Source: Thiobacillus denitrificans (GTDB lineage: Bacteria; Pseudomonadota; Gammaproteobacteria; Burkholderiales; Thiobacillaceae). Taken from it: a stretch of DNA of 64,000 bases. The notes under the pieces are model-generated. The model was given only the letters and a program-made list of their open reading frames with translations, was not told where the DNA came from and ran no database searches. The stretch's first letter is position 1. Every line of letters starts with the position of its first letter. The stretch is taken from NCBI RefSeq assembly GCF_001530125.1, contig NZ_LDUG01000017.1, positions 27,188-91,187 of the forward strand, given 5' to 3'. Below are positions 1-34,433 of the stretch, piece after piece. Made by a program: the position numbers and the translations under genes.

Positions 1-691
1 GCACCTCCATCAGGTAGCGGCCGTGCACGGCCTTCCCGGTGAGTTCGAACCGTTCCAGGAAAACCCGATTGGCGGACAAAACGGTGAGATTGGGCGAGAG
101 CACCAACAGTCCGTCGGGAATGCTGGTGAATACGATGTTGGCATACTCCTTCAGCGCCAGGATGGTTTGCCGGTCGGCCTGGATATAGGTGTCGATGGCG
201 AGTCCCATGTCCAGCAGAACGATCTTGATCAGCGCCTGGCAGGTGGCGACAAACGCCTCGGGGTCTTTTCCGAGCCGCTGCCAGAGTTCGGGAAGCAACC
301 CCGACAGGTACTTGCTGTAGGCGCCCAGATACCATTCCGGCGCCAGGCCGACGCGCTGGTGGACTACGCCGACTCGCAGGCGGTGGTGGATATACTCGGG
401 GCCGTAGTCCCCCGCGGTCAGGCTGTCGAAGTACGCCGCCTGGGTGCGCTTCAAACGTTCCAGCGTTTGCGCGTCGGGCAACAGCGCCCGTGTTTCCTCG
501 AAGGCCAGGAGATGGGTGTAAAAGGCATTGGCAAAATCCGGCGCCAGGGTCCGCAGGGCTTCGTGCAGCGTTCGCAACCGCGCAACGTCGTCATCGGTGA
601 ATTCCAGAAAGGCCTTGCGCCGGACGACGGCGGCATCGTCCAGTCCAAGCGCCCGCACCACGGCCTCGACGGTCTCATCCAGAGGCTTCAT
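1..691 (-). CDS. Globin-coupled sensor protein, N-terminal part (cut by the window edge)
   Basis: Reading the minus strand from the ATG at 691 gives 230 codons with no stop before the window edge. Residues 1 to about 170 match the sensor globin (protoglobin) domain. The run HQRVGLAPEWY places the likely proximal haem ligand at His111, with Tyr/Trp partners typical of the family. From about residue 200 a PAS-like domain begins (DGLLVLSPNLTVLSANRSF). Known relatives use haem to sense oxygen and end in a GGDEF, kinase or chemotaxis output domain, but that part lies outside the window. A GAGG Shine-Dalgarno sits nine bases before the start. The start overlaps a small upstream ORF at 675-803. Domain assignment is firm; the output function cannot be seen. 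Confidence 0.85.
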   Translation of the reverse strand, partial: MKPLDETVEAVVRALGLDDAAVVRRKAFLEFTDDDVARLRTLHEALRTLAPDFANAFYTHLLAFEETRALLPDAQTLERLKRTQAAYFDSLTAGDYGPEYIHHRLRVGVVHQRVGLAPEWYLGAYSKYLSGLLPELWQRLGKDPEAFVATCQALIKIVLLDMGLAIDTYIQADRQTILALKEYANIVFTSIPDGLLVLSPNLTVLSANRVFLERFELTGKAVHGRYLMEV

Positions 692-803
692 GCTCCCGGA
701 CCTCGCCGTAAACCAGGAAAGGGAGATGAAACTGCCGGCTTGCTTGCTTGCGCAAGATTTCTTCCATATCACGCCACTGAACCTTAGGGTTGTTCTTGTT
801 CAT
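675..803 (-). CDS. Possible small protein (42 aa) overlapping the globin-sensor start
   Basis: A 43-codon frame runs from the ATG at 803 to a TGA at 675-677, inside the first codons of the globin-sensor gene. The peptide is charged (MNKNNPKVQWRDMEEILRK at its start), has no cysteine or membrane segment, and I do not recognise it. The 17-base overlap would allow translational coupling with the sensor gene. There is no strong Shine-Dalgarno before the first ATG. It may be chance, since short open frames are frequent here. Confidence 0.3.
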   Translation of the reverse strand: MNKNNPKVQWRDMEEILRKQASRQFHLPFLVYGEVREHEASG

Positions 804-878: not shown

Positions 879-2117
879 TTAAGGACTCATGCGGTTACAT
901 GGCGGGGACACGCCGAAGGTCTCACAAAATACCCGGTACAACTCCCGCTCCACCACGCGCCAGTCTGCACTGATCAGGCGAAACCGCACCCGCGCGGCGC
1001 CGTCGGCCACGTGGCGATACAGCAGCGCATTATCGCTGCTGCCTCGCAGGTGATCGCTGAGGCGCTTGCGCAAATCACCGGCCGATCCGATGTAGACCAC
1101 GCCGTGCGGCACGACCGGCATACTTTTCCCCGGCCAGTCCTTTTCTTCACCGGGGCGGAAAGTGAAAGCCGTCCGGATTTCATACACGCCGGAATGGGCC
1201 GGAACCGCGGTGCGCAGCGCCTGAGCGGTCAGCGGCACCAGGACGGAAAACCCCTCGGTAGCGGCCAGGTAATCCGTGCGCTGGCTGCGGCGCCTGTAAT
1301 CGGGAATCGCCAGATCATGCCGGATGTTTGCCACTGTGCGCCGCGACAAGCGGATGCCATGTTCCCGCTTAAGGATGGCAGCGACGGCCTCGTCCGTCAG
1401 CGGCCCCTGCAATAACCCTTCTGACATCCATGTTTTTTCTATTTTTATCAGGTAATCCACGAAATGGCAATGAACTTGCCGCGGCTTCGGGAACAGGGTG
1501 TTTAACGGCGCCGCTTTCCCGTTTGCCAGCGCAATCGACAATCCACGCACCAGCCGGGAGATCCGGCCCGGATCCGCTACCACGGAAAGATTCGATTCCG
1601 ACCGCAGGCGGGTGGAAATCTCCGCCTGGGTCAAGGGCAGGAGCGACAGGGCCTGCCCGGAACGCAGATACGCTGCCTGCGCTGCCAGCACCGCCTGTAC
1701 CAGCGCATGGGTGAGCCGGTTCCGGGTATTGATGAGGCGCAGCCTGCGCAACGTCCCTGCGAAATCTCCGGGGGTTTCTTCACGTGCCATCAGGCGGTTC
1801 ATCCCCTCTTCATCATCGAACCGGTACTCACGCGCATAGCTGTCGCGGTGGTAAAGGAACACCAGGTCCTGGCTCGCCTCGTGAACTTCTCCCAGGATCA
1901 GGGATGCTTTGGTTTGGGGGATGTCGGCCGCATCATGCGCCACCCGTGCGCCTTCCAGTCGGCCCACGGTGACCCAGGGGCGTAGCGCGTTAAACCCGGT
2001 GGATGACTCCGCCTGGATCACGAGGCGGTCGAAAGCCCGTAGCGGCAACGCCAGAAAACGGGCGAGCATGATTTTGCCGAGCAGTGCGGCGTCGATCTTG
2101 TTGTTGTTGTGCTGCAA
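879..2117 (-). CDS. Sigma-54 C-terminal region fused to a GIY-YIG endonuclease domain
   Basis: A 412-residue protein in two parts. Residues ~40-285 resemble the core-binding and DNA-binding parts of sigma-54. A helix like the RpoN LRVSQAIVDRQKQFF segment is matched by THALVQAVLAAQAAYL, followed by PLTQAEIS and ISRLVRG (the HTH region). An RpoN-box-like SRRTVANIRHDLAIP can be compared with ARRTVAKYRELLQIP in the true RpoN at 32994-34433. The Q-rich activator-interacting N-terminus is absent. Residues ~305-412 form a GIY-YIG nuclease: GVYEI, VVYIGSAGDLRKRLSDH (catalytic Tyr and Arg), a Glu in VERELYRVF, and a C-terminal Asn in PPCNR. The start is a TTG with GGTGA eight bases upstream; an ATG at 2069 is the alternative. 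Both halves look intact. The combined role is unknown. Confidence 0.75.
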   Translation of the reverse strand: MQHNNNKIDAALLGKIMLARFLALPLRAFDRLVIQAESSTGFNALRPWVTVGRLEGARVAHDAADIPQTKASLILGEVHEASQDLVFLYHRDSYAREYRFDDEEGMNRLMAREETPGDFAGTLRRLRLINTRNRLTHALVQAVLAAQAAYLRSGQALSLLPLTQAEISTRLRSESNLSVVADPGRISRLVRGLSIALANGKAAPLNTLFPKPRQVHCHFVDYLIKIEKTWMSEGLLQGPLTDEAVAAILKREHGIRLSRRTVANIRHDLAIPDYRRRSQRTDYLAATEGFSVLVPLTAQALRTAVPAHSGVYEIRTAFTFRPGEEKDWPGKSMPVVPHGVVYIGSAGDLRKRLSDHLRGSSDNALLYRHVADGAARVRFRLISADWRVVERELYRVFCETFGVSPPCNRMSP

Positions 2118-2303
2118 GTGCTGTTCACCGACAAAATGTTTTGGGTTCTTCTTCCGCTAAGCCTGCGGAGAGACGGGATGACCGATGGCTCGGAAATGGT
2201 TGTCTATGCGGGTTTCCGGGACTCCGGCAAGGGTGGCTTTCTGGAATGCTTCGCGGAGGCCAGCCTGCCCATGCAGTCCGGGCGGCCTGACCGGCGCATT
2301 CCG

Positions 2304-2955: not shown

Positions 2956-3654
2956 TCAGGGGAGATCAAAGCAGATTACTTCGCTGGCTTCCAGTGCCTC
3001 GATGTCGACGGCGGATTCGAAGCGGACCGCCACGGCATCTCCGGCGTCCAGCGGCAATCTCTGCACCTTGACCCGGCCGGTCGCCACCTGCAGCCAGGCG
3101 CGTCGCCCCGGCGCGAGCGTCAGGGTGGCGCGGTCGCCGGCCGCCAGTCGCCCGGCGTGGATCGCGGCGTCCTGGTGGATCGTCACCGAGCCGTCGCGGC
3201 CGTCGCGCGAGGCGATCAACTGCAGCCGGCCCTGCAGGCTGTCGGGAGCAAAGGCAATTTGTTCATAGCCCGGCTCCAGCCCATACGCATCCGGCTCGAT
3301 CCAGATTTGCAGCAAATGCACCGGTTCGGTCGCCGACGCGTTGAACTCGCTGTGGGCGATGCCGTGCCCGGCGCGCATGCGCTGCACCTCGCCGGGGCGG
3401 ATCACGCCGCCGTTGCCGAGCGAGTCCTGGTGTTCGAGCGCGCCTGCGAGCACCCAGGTGACGATTTCCATGTCCTGGTGGCTGTGGGTGGGGAAGCCGC
3501 CGCCAGGTGAGATGCGGTCTTCGTTGATCACACGCAGCGGGCCGAACCCCAACCAGGCGGGGTCGTGGTAGCTGGCGAACGAAAAGCTGTGGAAGCTGTC
3601 TAGCCAGCCATGGTGGGCGTGGCCGCGTTCGGCTGATTTGCGCACGATAAGCAT
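2956..3654 (-). CDS. Pirin family protein (YhhW-type bicupin)
   Basis: This 232-residue protein carries the pirin signature: HGWLDSFHSFSFASYHDP near the start, HSHQDMEIVTWVLAG with metal-binding His residues, and RAGHGIAHSEFN. The E. coli relative YhhW is a metal-dependent bicupin with quercetin 2,3-dioxygenase activity in vitro; the physiological substrate is usually unknown. It is transcribed away from the LysR gene at 3761 across a 106-bp gap, the usual arrangement when a LysR protein controls its divergent neighbour. The link to that regulator is an inference. Confidence 0.9.
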   Translation of the reverse strand: MLIVRKSAERGHAHHGWLDSFHSFSFASYHDPAWLGFGPLRVINEDRISPGGGFPTHSHQDMEIVTWVLAGALEHQDSLGNGGVIRPGEVQRMRAGHGIAHSEFNASATEPVHLLQIWIEPDAYGLEPGYEQIAFAPDSLQGRLQLIASRDGRDGSVTIHQDAAIHAGRLAAGDRATLTLAPGRRAWLQVATGRVKVQRLPLDAGDAVAVRFESAVDIEALEASEVICFDLP

Positions 3655-12359: not shown

Positions 12360-13568
12360 TCAGCTTTCGAGCTGGAAGCGCAGTCCCAGCTTGCTGAAGC
12401 TGAAGAAGTCCAGCGTCGAGTCGGTTCTTTCATAGACCACGCCGATCTGCGGTCGATAGCCTCGGATGCGCAGCGAAGGCCGCAGCAGGTCCAGGCTTAC
12501 CGTGAAACGCGTGTCCTGGCGCCGGTCTCCAAAAAACGGATCGATCCCATCGTACTTGCGAACGCCGGCAGCGCCATACAGCGTGAATCGCGTATCCCAG
12601 GTGTCGGACGGCCAGACCACCGAGCCGCCGAGGCTGCCGCCGCGGTAGGAATAAGCTGCTTCGCCGGCTTTTGCCCGTTCCAGCGTGGCCTCGTTGCTGA
12701 AGGCCAGACCGAGTGCCGGCGGGTAGGCCAGCTTGCCGACCAGGAACAGGTTGTCGGAATCCAGGTGCGGCATCTGCAGCACCTGCAGCCTGCCGACCTT
12801 CAACTCGCCCAGCAGGCGGTAGCCGTCCGACGGCGCCATGGCGGCCAGCGCGCCCACGTAGGGAAAACGGTAGAGGGTGCGCCCATCCAGCCGGGCCCCT
12901 TCGAAGCCTGCCTTGGCCTTGAGCCATGGCAGGCCCGGTACCGCCCGCGCCAGACCAAAGTCGCCGTTCAGCCGGTCGAACGTTCCACCCGGAAAATCGG
13001 AATAGGAGGCGGTGAAGAAGGCCGTGGTCCGGTGTTTTTCGTCCAGCGGCCGATAGCCGCGCACCGACAGCCTGACGCCGGTGACATGGCGGTTGTCCTC
13101 GGGCGGCACCACGGTCAGCGACTGGCCGCCGATCATCACTTCGCGGCTGTTGGTGAAGTTGCGCGGATTCGAGTCGCTGACCACGCCGACGGAAAACTTG
13201 ACGTAGCCCGTAGCCATGTCGATCTCGTCGAGGTAGACGCGGATGTTCTCGGCCACCCGCCAGGGCAGTTCCGGGCGCGCCAGCACTTCACGAAACAACT
13301 GTTCGGAACGCTCGTAATCCTGCAACAGGTACAGCGCGCGGGCGAGTTCCAGCTTGACCCGCGGGCTGCCGGTCTCGGCAAGCAGCGGCTCGAAAATCGC
13401 CACCGCTCGCATCGGATTGCCCGCATGCAAGGCTTCGACGCCGAGGAGAAAGCGTGCCTGATAGGTGGCGCCCTGGTCGGGCTGCATGCCGGCCGGCGCT
13501 TCCTCGGCCAGCACGGGGCAAGTCAGCAGCGCCGCAACGCAGGCCAGCACCGCACTGAATCGCCGCAT
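12360..13568 (-). CDS. Slam-type outer-membrane protein (TPR plus DUF560 beta-barrel)
   Basis: 402 residues with a signal peptide (MRRFSAVLACVAALLTCPVLA). TPR-like helices at ~40-130 (RFLLGVEALHAGNPMRAVAIFEPLL, LARALYLLQDYERSEQLF) precede a beta-barrel ending in FQLES with a terminal-strand pattern. This layout is that of surface lipoprotein assembly modulators, which move lipoproteins such as TbpB to the outside of the outer membrane. The start at 13568 is chosen for its signal peptide; a longer frame exists upstream. It begins one base after the stop of the lipoprotein gene, so the two are translated from one mRNA and the neighbour is the probable cargo. Confidence 0.8.
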   Translation of the reverse strand: MRRFSAVLACVAALLTCPVLAEEAPAGMQPDQGATYQARFLLGVEALHAGNPMRAVAIFEPLLAETGSPRVKLELARALYLLQDYERSEQLFREVLARPELPWRVAENIRVYLDEIDMATGYVKFSVGVVSDSNPRNFTNSREVMIGGQSLTVVPPEDNRHVTGVRLSVRGYRPLDEKHRTTAFFTASYSDFPGGTFDRLNGDFGLARAVPGLPWLKAKAGFEGARLDGRTLYRFPYVGALAAMAPSDGYRLLGELKVGRLQVLQMPHLDSDNLFLVGKLAYPPALGLAFSNEATLERAKAGEAAYSYRGGSLGGSVVWPSDTWDTRFTLYGAAGVRKYDGIDPFFGDRRQDTRFTVSLDLLRPSLRIRGYRPQIGVVYERTDSTLDFFSFSKLGLRFQLES

Positions 13569-13569
13569 G

Positions 13570-14511
13570 TCAGGGTGTCTGTTTGGCGCCGTATGCACCC
13601 GCATAGGTCTCGACGCCGCTCCCTTGCAGGAGGAACACGCCGCCCAGTTCCTCGGCATTCGGGCCATAGAACTGGCCGGTTGAATTGCCCGCCAGTCCGC
13701 CGACAGAGTTTACCGATCCAGTAAAGCTGTTTGTGCCTGCAGCAATGGTCAGGGCGCCGTTCAGATTCAGGTCGGGTTTCGAGGTAAAAACAACCCAGTC
13801 TGATGAGGTTTGGGTGTTGTTCGTCTTGAAGGTCAAAGACCGGGCCGTGCCAAAATCGGCGATTACCGTCAGGTCTGCAAAGACGGTCGTGCCCGCGCCA
13901 GCCGTGTTGACGTAGCTGCCGGTGGTATAGCCGGTAAAGGTGGCTGTGCCACTGTCCGGAATGGCCGTCCCGGCGGTGTTCCCCACGCTCATGGCGCCAA
14001 AGGTCCTGCTGGTTGTACCCAGACCGGTTTCCCAAACGCCGAAAGTCTGGTATTCCCAGCCAAGGTCAATGGGTTTGGCCGTGACCGCCACGCTGGTTGA
14101 ATTCCTGGCACCCACGAATTGAGGAGATGCTCCCGGGGTCAACGTCAAGTTAGTGAAGGTGGCGCCATCGGCTTTATCGAGGACCACCAGGGTGGGGGCG
14201 GGGGTCGTCAGGGCCAACCGGCTTAACTCGAGAGCCGAATCGAACGTCAAATAGGCGCTGTAACCGTCCGCCACGCCCGAAGGTGTGATTGCAATAAACT
14301 GCCCGCCAGACGCCGTTCCCGTGACTTCCTGGCCTAGGCCATCGGCCTTGTAGTTCACGCCGGGCTGCACAGCGCTCCATTTTGTGAATGCCGTAGTGGC
14401 GATGGGTGTGGGGGCGGGCGTGGGTGCGCTACCGCCCCCGCCTCCGCCGCAGGCGGACAGAATCAATGAAACGCTGAGTAATGCAGTGCGCTTGCCGGCT
14501 ACTGTTTTCAT
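13570..14511 (-). CDS. TbpB-like surface lipoprotein, probable Slam substrate
   Basis: 313 residues. The lipoprotein signal has lipobox LSAC followed by a Gly/Pro linker (CGGGGGGSAPTPAPTP). The C-terminal part is a transferrin-binding-protein-like beta-barrel domain, recognisable from FTGSVNSVGG and GQFYGPNAEELGGVFLLQG. Known members bind transferrin, haem, haemoglobin or other host ligands. A free-living host makes a different ligand likely, so none is proposed. The ATG at 14511 is preceded by AAGG about nine bases upstream. Its gene leads the two-gene unit with the Slam-like protein. Confidence 0.75.
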   Translation of the reverse strand: MKTVAGKRTALLSVSLILSACGGGGGGSAPTPAPTPIATTAFTKWSAVQPGVNYKADGLGQEVTGTASGGQFIAITPSGVADGYSAYLTFDSALELSRLALTTPAPTLVVLDKADGATFTNLTLTPGASPQFVGARNSTSVAVTAKPIDLGWEYQTFGVWETGLGTTSRTFGAMSVGNTAGTAIPDSGTATFTGYTTGSYVNTAGAGTTVFADLTVIADFGTARSLTFKTNNTQTSSDWVVFTSKPDLNLNGALTIAAGTNSFTGSVNSVGGLAGNSTGQFYGPNAEELGGVFLLQGSGVETYAGAYGAKQTP

Positions 14512-32993: not shown

Positions 32994-34433
32994 TCAAAGC
33001 GCGCGGCGCATGTTTGCGGGGGGGATTTGCAGCAATTCGCGGTATTTGGCGACGGTGCGGCGGGCCACCACGATGCCCTGCTGGCCGAGCACGTCGGCCA
33101 GCTGGCCGTCGGACAGCGGTTTCTTGCCGCTTTCGGCGGCGATCAGCTGTTTGATCAGCGCCCGGATGGCGGTCGACGAGCAGGCGCCGCCACTGTCGGT
33201 GGCGACATGGCTGCCGAAGAAATACTTCAGTTCGTACAGGCCGCGCGGCGTCATCATGAATTTTTGTGTGGTCACGCGTGAAATGGTCGATTCGTGCAGC
33301 TCAACCGTGTCGGCGATCTCGCGCAACACCAGCGGGCGCATCGCTACATCGCCGTGCTCGAAGAACTGCTTCTGGCGGTCGACGATGGCCTGCGAGACGC
33401 GCAGGATGGTGTCGAAGCGCTGTTGCACGTTCTTGATCAGCCAGCGTGCTTCCTGCAGCTGGCTGGCCAGCTGGCTGCCACCGTTTTCGCGGTGGCGCGC
33501 CAGGATGTCGGCATAGACGCGGTTGACGCGCAGCCTGGGCATGGCGTCGGCATTGAGGCTGGCGATCCACATGCCCTTGATCTTGCGTATATAGACGTCG
33601 GGAATGACGTAGTGCGTTTCGTCGGCGCCGAAGGCCGCGCCGGGACGCGGGTTCAGGGACAGGATCAGGGCACGCGCAGCACGCAGCGCGGGGTCGTCGA
33701 TTCCGAGCATTTTTTTCAGCTTGCCGACATCGCGCGCGGCGAGCAGATCGAGATAATGCGCCGTCAGCCGCATGGCGGCGTCGCGCGCCGGGGTGTCGGG
33801 GGACAGGGCGCGCAGCTGCAGGGTCAGGCATTCAGCCAGGTTGCGCGCGCCGACGCCGGTCGGGTCCATGTTTTGCAGGTGCTTGAGCGCGGTTTCGACC
33901 TCCTGGGGTTCGAGCTCCTCGATTTCGGCCTGCAGACTGGCGGTGATGTCTTCCAGCGGCTGGGTAAGAAAGCCGGCTTCGTCGAGGTCGTCGATCAGCG
34001 CGGCAACCAGCGTGCGGTCGCGCAAGGTCAGTGGGCTGACGATCAGCTGGTTCAGCAGGTGTTCGCGCAAGGTTGAACCCGATACCGAGCCTTGCTCATA
34101 GTCGCTGTCTTCGTCATTGCTGCCGGCCGCACTGTAGTCGTTCCAGTCGGAATCATCGAGCGAGGTCACCGGATCGGATTCGGAGCTCTCGGGCTGAGGG
34201 GCTTCCGTGCTCTGCGCCTCAGCCTCGGCCGTGTGGACGGGGGCCTCGGCGGCCGCCAGGCTGACTTCGTCTTCGTTCTCGTCCTCGCGTTCCAGCAGCG
34301 GATTGTCCTGCAGCATCTGCTCCAGTTCCTGGTTCAATTCCAGCGTCGACAACTGCAGCAGCCGGATCGACTGCTGCAGTTGCGGCGTCAGGGTAAGGTG
34401 TTGACCGAGCTTGAGTTGAAGGCTGTGTTTCAT
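32994..34433 (-). CDS. rpoN: RNA polymerase sigma-54 factor
   Basis: 479 residues. A Gln/Leu-rich activator-interacting N-terminus (LQLKLGQHLTLTPQLQQSIRLL) is followed by an acidic linker, the core-binding domain, the HTH (ELHESTISRVTTQKFMMTPRG) and an intact RpoN box ARRTVAKYRELLQIP. It directs polymerase to -24/-12 promoters and requires an AAA+ activator, such as the response regulator at 57248-58678. A protein containing only the C-terminal half of this architecture lies at 879-2117. Confidence 0.96.
   Translation of the reverse strand: MKHSLQLKLGQHLTLTPQLQQSIRLLQLSTLELNQELEQMLQDNPLLEREDENEDEVSLAAAEAPVHTAEAEAQSTEAPQPESSESDPVTSLDDSDWNDYSAAGSNDEDSDYEQGSVSGSTLREHLLNQLIVSPLTLRDRTLVAALIDDLDEAGFLTQPLEDITASLQAEIEELEPQEVETALKHLQNMDPTGVGARNLAECLTLQLRALSPDTPARDAAMRLTAHYLDLLAARDVGKLKKMLGIDDPALRAARALILSLNPRPGAAFGADETHYVIPDVYIRKIKGMWIASLNADAMPRLRVNRVYADILARHRENGGSQLASQLQEARWLIKNVQQRFDTILRVSQAIVDRQKQFFEHGDVAMRPLVLREIADTVELHESTISRVTTQKFMMTPRGLYELKYFFGSHVATDSGGACSSTAIRALIKQLIAAESGKKPLSDGQLADVLGQQGIVVARRTVAKYRELLQIPPANMRRAL

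Follow-up and report, generated by a model that had tools for sequence, protein, structure and literature searches.

A sigma-54-type DNA-binding region joined to a GIY-YIG nuclease domain, and its association with repeat arrays at a neighbouring signalling gene

The described systems closest to the locus analysed here are sigma-54 (RpoN), which begins melting promoter DNA just downstream of the -12 element; the GIY-YIG nucleases, such as UvrC and I-TevI; the free-standing homing endonucleases, whose insertion destroys their own target; and the microsatellites of bacterial contingency loci, whose phase variation is usually put down to passive replication slippage. The literature searched, consisting of titles and the beginnings of abstracts, with bioRxiv and most subscription papers outside it, describes neither a sigma-54/GIY-YIG fusion nor a nuclease acting on bacterial microsatellites, and a term count over the text of a 2025 review of phase variation (PMC11868660) gave no word starting with 'nuclease' or 'endonuclease'. 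Such a fusion, together with repeat arrays at an adjoining c-di-GMP signalling gene, is present in the 64,000-nucleotide stretch of DNA examined here (the window). On the comparisons of sequence given below, we put at not quite an even chance the reading that a sequence-targeted nuclease drives repeat-length (phase) variation of that neighbouring gene.

The fusion protein and its relatives

The features of the window on which the argument draws are the following.

1-691, minus strand: 5' part of the partner signalling gene, with ATG at 689-691; an alternative GTG at 770-772 reads through site A
675-803, minus strand: small open reading frame of 42 amino acids, MNKNNPKVQWRDMEEILRKQAS..., which includes site A and overlaps the signalling gene at its start
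738-766, minus strand: site A, made up of TGG (764-766), N8, TTGC (752-755), GC and (AAGC)3 (738-749)
879-2117, minus strand: fusion of a sigma-54-like DNA-binding region and a GIY-YIG nuclease domain, 412 amino acids, TTG start
891-1196, minus strand: GIY-YIG domain, about residues 308-409, from invariant residues and predicted fold
1287-1739, minus strand: sigma-54 DNA-binding domain, residues 127-277, with an HTH and a near-RpoN box, RRTVANIRHDLAIP, from PF04552, hhalign and structural alignment
2118-2290, strand not assigned: flank of the accessory element on its right-hand side, beyond which, from about 2291, homology to the sister genome G167 resumes
32994-34433, minus strand: genuine rpoN, 479 amino acids, for comparison with the fusion

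The initial annotation proposed that the gene at 879-2117, read from a TTG start, joins a sigma-54 DNA-binding part to a GIY-YIG domain. The start is borne out, and the 412-residue fusion is confirmed as real. Its residues 127-277 match Pfam Sigma54_DBD (PF04552) at 36 bits (cut-off 22.8), residues 139 to about 279 match a profile of 25 RpoN sequences with E 5e-7 (hhalign), and all 18 of the solved sequences that the protein matched were RpoN. On this part TIGR02395, the rpoN model, gives 30.5 bits, far short of the 277.35 that it requires of an equivalog. The predicted model of the whole fusion (mean pLDDT 77.6, pTM 0.61) aligns over residues 7-281 with sigma-54 in the promoter complex 8f1k_M (Z 15.7, 229 residues, rmsd 6.1).

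For the C-terminal part, Pfam GIY-YIG (PF01541) reaches 16 bits, below its cut-off of 22.6. Six residues, Y312, Y342, R352, H356, E390 and N408, which we take to be the positions that are catalytic in UvrC and I-TevI, are invariant in all 18 aligned sequences, the window protein included, and their equivalents are kept in 11 of 11 sequences, one of them only 39% identical. Folded alone, the C-terminal 120 residues are predicted to form beta-beta-alpha-alpha-beta-alpha, the GIY-YIG element order. Structural matches to the domain are weak: in Foldseek the first six rows are all GIY-YIG domains of UvrC, with E from 0.049 to 0.55 and no row reaching 0.001, and against the PDB the best Z is 4.5, eight of the top nine rows being GIY-YIG and the fifth a designed protein. 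Both plasmid-borne relatives, on pSTJ2 of Sulfuricystis multivorans and pDCB1 of Diaphorobacter sp. JS3051, are annotated 'GIY-YIG nuclease family protein'. In PHROGs the window protein matched nothing, and its relative at L005 had a single weak match of unknown function (E 0.16); the PADLOC matches, to PDC-S14 and across the GIY-YIG motif, had E values between 0.019 and 0.055.

On the further claim that the activator-interacting region is missing, sequence and predicted fold disagree. With a region I HMM the best of 24 N-termini scored 0.8 bits, below shuffled (6.1) and other-segment (6.4) controls, and hhalign was negative for region I at the N-terminus as well; the structural alignment, however, begins at model residue 7, opposite sigma-54 residue 11.

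The genome of the window carries a second nuclease copy, 49% identical (G000:C50:2325-3500, locus L034). Of the 27 loci returned by a contig search, 26 hold relatives whose best segment is 60-86% identical, some of these relatives being partial; the 27th (L030) is a 19-residue match. Among 369 genomes of the class one new divergent homologue was found (G522), and a search of 20 genomes in its family added G1126, with two nuclease copies. A search of 398 genomes of the phylum yielded G780 (L103:6032-7231), in which the sigma-54-like and GIY-YIG parts lie in different frames, whether through an error in sequencing, decay of the gene or natural splitting. No further relative appeared among 47 other genomes of the order to which G780 belongs, and a plasmid search with the divergent homologue returned only the two plasmids already known.

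Two small observations concern the DNA upstream of the nuclease gene. At 2146-2165 (minus strand) of the window, and again in L004, there is a sequence GGCTT(A/G)GCGGAAGAAGAA that resembles a degenerate core of site B (described below) and is possibly a relic. L009 has a tandem 8-mer array, (CGGAATCA)16, at 3442-3569.

The partner signalling gene and the two repeat arrays

The nuclease gene had been described as isolated; it turns out to be one half of a conserved two-gene unit. The partner in the window is the start of a 910-aa frame (L033:4228-6960, minus strand) with the order Protoglobin, PAS, N gap, PAS, GGDEF, EAL, the gap ending exactly at the window start, beside a (GAA)8 tract. Wherever contigs are long enough, the same-strand open reading frames after the nuclease form one homologous group of signalling proteins; of five such downstream proteins scanned, all have GGDEF and four have EAL, with protoglobin, PilJ-HAMP, GAF or PAS as input domains. 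Each plasmid nuclease copy is followed by an 'EAL domain-containing protein'. After the second copy in the genome of the window come (AAGC)3, here spaced at N9, and a PilJ-HAMP-PAS sensor gene that is cut off by the contig end. Near the signalling gene of L018 lies a frame resembling a group-II-intron reverse transcriptase (12742-13992, minus strand), its identity judged by eye only.

Between the two genes lies site A. The sequence TTGCGC(AAGC)n was found in all 26 relatives from the contig search, 39-105 bp after the nuclease stop in 22 and 178-515 bp after it in four; the unit count n ranges from 2 to 31 across all loci. Across 399 genomes of the order there are eight occurrences of TTGCGC(AAGC)3, in six genomes (reversed control, 0), each with a nuclease-profile match at a distance of 36-127 bp; six of these matches are full-length, one is a C-terminal part (G115) and one a 66-residue fragment (G048:C9). 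Nuclease-profile matches above 40 bits fall in the same six of the 399 genomes, the listed matches below 40 bits being probably rpoN, to judge by profile position and frame length. The genome of the window has exactly two arrays of the TTGCGC(AAGC)n type, one beside each nuclease copy. The locus sets overlap, coordinates indicating that G273 is L007, G115 is L028 and G020 is the host of pSTJ2.

Site B, (GAA)n with n of 6-12, lies inside the signalling gene and encodes a glutamate run in a PAS-domain hairpin; in the 23 loci with both sites it follows site A at a distance of 0.87 to 1.57 kb. Five matches to a loose pattern, GG-N8-TTG-NN-(GAA)5, fall in four of 300 genomes of the order, each of them some 0.9-1.5 kb downstream of the nuclease gene or a fragment of it. 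This pattern supersedes a stricter one that matched three of nine genomes, six of the nine having the nuclease. Neither pattern matches the genome of the window, because the bases before its (GAA)8 tract fall in the N gap, or G115, because the gene downstream of its nuclease is incomplete. For comparison, four of 45 genomes of the order have (GAA)6 tracts, two of them at a nuclease locus and two unrelated (G016, G029), with no motif and no nuclease in the surrounding 3 kb; the pattern being periodic, a reversed control is uninformative for (GAA)6. Site B was not seen in L020, L021 and L028; L012 has an interrupted GAA tract, with TTGA replacing TTGC; and the contigs of L009, L016, L024 and L029 end before site B could be judged.

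Site A is absent from G522 and G1126 (three nuclease copies). All three copies are followed, after 10-13 bp, by a gene whose site B has another spacer: in G522 it reads TGGTATGTACCTTGCA(GAA)6, that is, TGGTATGTACC-TTGCA-(GAA)6, while in G1126 one copy is like this with (GAA)7 and the other is TTG-(GAA)9, the Ala codon absorbed into the array. Homologues at 39% identity, and one remoter, thus again show (GAA)n after GG-N8-TTG. The remoter case of G780 has CGG-N8-TTGT-A-(GAA)9 elsewhere in a PAS-like gene just downstream (the gene judged by eye), and its contig ends 13 bases beyond the (GAA)9.

Both arrays start directly after the same motif, TGG-N8-TTGC, with a spacing that we take to be that of sigma-54 -24/-12 promoters. 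Of 29 unique site-A contexts, 25 have TGG and 27 have GG at precisely the N8 distance, the remaining two being N9; exceptions to the motif include L003/C50 and L027 (N9), L107 (TTGA) and G780 (CGG and TTGT). Since site B lies within coding DNA, selection on the DNA can there be told apart from selection on the protein. For its Leu all 22 of 22 sequences use CTT, a codon that makes up 10.0% of the 657 Leu codons further upstream in these genes; the codon preceding Gly (Thr, Ala or Ser) likewise has T as its last base in 22 of 22, against a background in which ACT accounts for 13.7% of 153 Thr codons. This count, from which seven duplicate sequences were dropped, leaves out L012 and L107, which have lost the Ala codon and both keep CTT. 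The 22 sequences are related, so the proper control is the adjacent variable positions, and the codons between the fixed ones do vary (GGA/GGC, ATC/ATA/ATG, CGG/CGT/CGC/CAT). By itself TGG-N8-TTGC is common, with 20 places in the window over both strands, so the array itself or further bases must supply specificity. In two separate lineages, L012 and L107 (G1126), the Ala codon after CTT has become GAA and the array starts at TTG, possibly a trace of where array changes begin.

It has to be asked whether repeats and motif simply descend as a block with the nuclease, reflecting shared ancestry and no function. Most loci are related, at 60-86% identity, which fits block inheritance and means that the counts are not independent. 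Block inheritance would not account for third positions of the motif being conserved while the codons between them vary, for motif and array persisting in 39%-identical homologues with a different spacer, for arrays being retained though their lengths change, or for (GAA)6 being so rare a tract with half of its genomes falling at the nuclease locus. This reading is already disfavoured, and we regard it as highly improbable.

The suggestion that the fusion protein recognizes -24/-12-type DNA gains independent support: TGG-N8-TTGC sits beside the repeats, is conserved, is held at synonymous positions and, in its repeat-linked form, turned up in the genomes searched solely where the nuclease is present. 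Binding of this kind could also serve another end. A competitor of sigma-54 had been proposed at the outset, and a DNA-binding autoregulator or competitor that controls the signalling gene, perhaps along with its own, could use the repeats to tune spacing or translation without any role for cutting. The intergenic position of site A is that expected of an operator or promoter, its motif has what is presumably the spacing of a sigma-54 promoter, and the predicted fold superposes on most of sigma-54. However, a protein of this sort would have no evident need of six invariant GIY-YIG catalytic residues, site B is deep within a coding region, and the start of both arrays right after TTGC is left unexplained, as are the microsatellites themselves. 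Competition with sigma-54 is a possible activity; as an account of the whole locus we consider regulation without cutting unlikely.

Repeat number, reading frames and mobility

Repeat numbers differ between near-identical loci. Among 16 locus pairs whose upstream DNA is at least 93% identical, which overlap and are not independent, the first site-A count differs in ten and is equal in six. L019 and L029, 99.8% identical over 637 bp upstream, have site-A counts of 5,5 and 6,8, and L013 and L014, 99.2% identical, have 6 and 5 at site A and 8 and 9 at site B. Most of the sequences come from MAG assemblies and may give array lengths wrongly, and differences of this kind could also arise by ordinary slippage during replication. 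Runs of N, which may be assembly gaps or stretches withheld from the sequence analysed, adjoin arrays at site B of both copies in the genome of the window and at site A in G071, and contigs end at or near arrays in G780 and L024. On contig C9 of G048, only nuclease residues 213-276 are detectable in 9 kb, yet n is 28 at site A and there is a (GAA)9; a second contig of that genome, C30, carries an open full-length nuclease. This combination would be consistent with action of the nuclease in trans.

What a change at site A would do to the signalling gene appears to differ among loci. In ten of them (the window, L004, L006, L020, L021, L022, L025, L031, L032 and L034) a frame runs through the repeat into the signalling gene, and in seven of the ten the read-through frame has an upstream ATG or GTG. 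L020 (n 9) has such a start and L021 (n 8) does not; likewise L031 (n 5) has one and L032 (n 6) does not. In another 16 loci (Gallionella-type and similar) none of the three frames stays open for more than 47 bp from the site-A array that adjoins the signalling gene, and all end ahead of its ATG; these loci do not fit a simple on/off switch of frame, and in them only translational coupling could change.

The two-gene unit also has the character of accessory DNA, as the initial annotation supposed, and is missing at the same site in two sister genomes. In these (G167 and G347) acs and an FMN reductase gene lie about 0.6 and about 1.1 kb apart with a small gene between them; here an element of about 4.3 kb replaces that small gene save its last ~57 bp. 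The remnant, between acs and FMN reductase, is at L033:4079-4135 (C9), by comparison with L089 and L090. Patchy distribution and the copies on two plasmids fit an accessory element.

These properties might be those of a selfish mobile element that cuts -24/-12-like sites in order to spread, the microsatellites being scars or homology tails of cutting and repair; absence of the unit from the two sister genomes, its occurrence in six of 399 genomes of the order and the relatives on two plasmids all agree with this. Against it, the candidate targets A and B stand intact beside the nuclease gene, the ends of the element in its own genome are at neither site, and no relative was found in the phage and IMG/VR collections searched. 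We think this account quite unlikely, and the classical homing role that had been suggested for the protein is, because of the intact candidate targets, unsupported.

Breaks at A and B could instead serve to exchange cassettes, swapping the sensor part or whole signalling genes. L019, L023 and L029 carry an extra ~2.3 kb between two site-A leaders (L019:3853-6191, L023:9366-11686, L029:638-2980), as compared with a single site A in L017; the extra stretch of L019 holds a 613-aa GAF-PAS-GGDEF gene, between flanks 94.2% and 98.5% identical to L017. This looks like the gain or loss of a cassette, and the N-terminal domains between A and B do differ among loci, being protoglobin or PilJ-HAMP. A single insertion type has been seen, however, and exchange does not need microsatellites as such; we judge it very unlikely to be what the system is for.

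Proposed role and comparison with known systems

We return to the reading in which a targeted nuclease changes repeat length. The sigma-54-derived part would dock on the TGG-N8-TTGC sites in the neighbouring c-di-GMP or sensory gene, and the GIY-YIG domain would nick or cut just downstream of TTGC, within the (AAGC)n or (GAA)n array. That the arrays start just downstream of -12 suggests, by analogy with promoter melting, how a cut could land in the repeat. Repair of the break inside the repeat would then alter the unit number. At site A a change by a four-base unit would act where the gene starts, through a shift of reading frame or of translational coupling, while at site B a change by a three-base unit would lengthen or shorten a glutamate loop in the PAS domain with the frame kept. 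On this view the two genes together would form a mobile device, complete in itself, by which a single signalling gene varies faster in phase and in length. The fusion, its conserved catalytic residues, the genomic linkage, the motif with its conservation at synonymous positions and the differences in repeat number are observations; that the protein binds and cuts these sites, that cutting alters the repeats and that signalling is affected are inferences.

More tentatively, we suggest a programmed diversification system, in which a captured sigma-54 reading module steers a GIY-YIG nuclease to promoter-like sites abutting microsatellites and the repeats are nicked where sigma-54 would start melting, a mobile cassette carrying both the c-di-GMP protein and the engine that varies it. 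If this is true, a dedicated, targeted repeat-changing enzyme would represent a new form of cellular control over where mutations happen and a sigma factor would have been reused as the guide of a nuclease, potentially offering a compact tool for editing repeat length; the c-di-GMP link would tie programmed variation to lifestyle decisions of environmental bacteria.

The comparison with described systems is instructive for each part of the locus. The DNA-binding half of the fusion is like sigma-54 (RpoN) in its RpoN box, in the predicted fold of residues 7-281 and in the -24/-12 spacing of the linked sites. It differs in being joined to a nuclease, in falling far under the equivalog cut-off, in the size of the sigma-like part (about 280 residues, against 479 for the genuine RpoN) and in its linked sites, which keep TGG...TTGC without the CACG of what we take to be the consensus. 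The C-terminal half shares with the GIY-YIG nucleases, as represented by the N-terminal domain of UvrC and by I-TevI, the six presumed catalytic positions and the predicted alpha/beta order, but its match to PF01541 is below threshold and its targeting is apparently due to a sigma-54-derived module.

With SSR contingency loci such as Haemophilus lic, the signalling gene has in common a tetranucleotide array at the 5' end, starts in several frames and a variable copy number; in contrast to lic, a nuclease gene is linked to it, a sigma-54-like motif abuts the array, and the target is c-di-GMP signalling and not a surface structure. A nuclease gene that adjoins its presumed target and is patchily distributed recalls the free-standing homing endonucleases, from which the present system differs in that the sites are intact next to the gene. 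The idea of a targeted break that drives the variation of one locus is that of yeast HO and gonococcal pilE, except that here the break would act at microsatellites.
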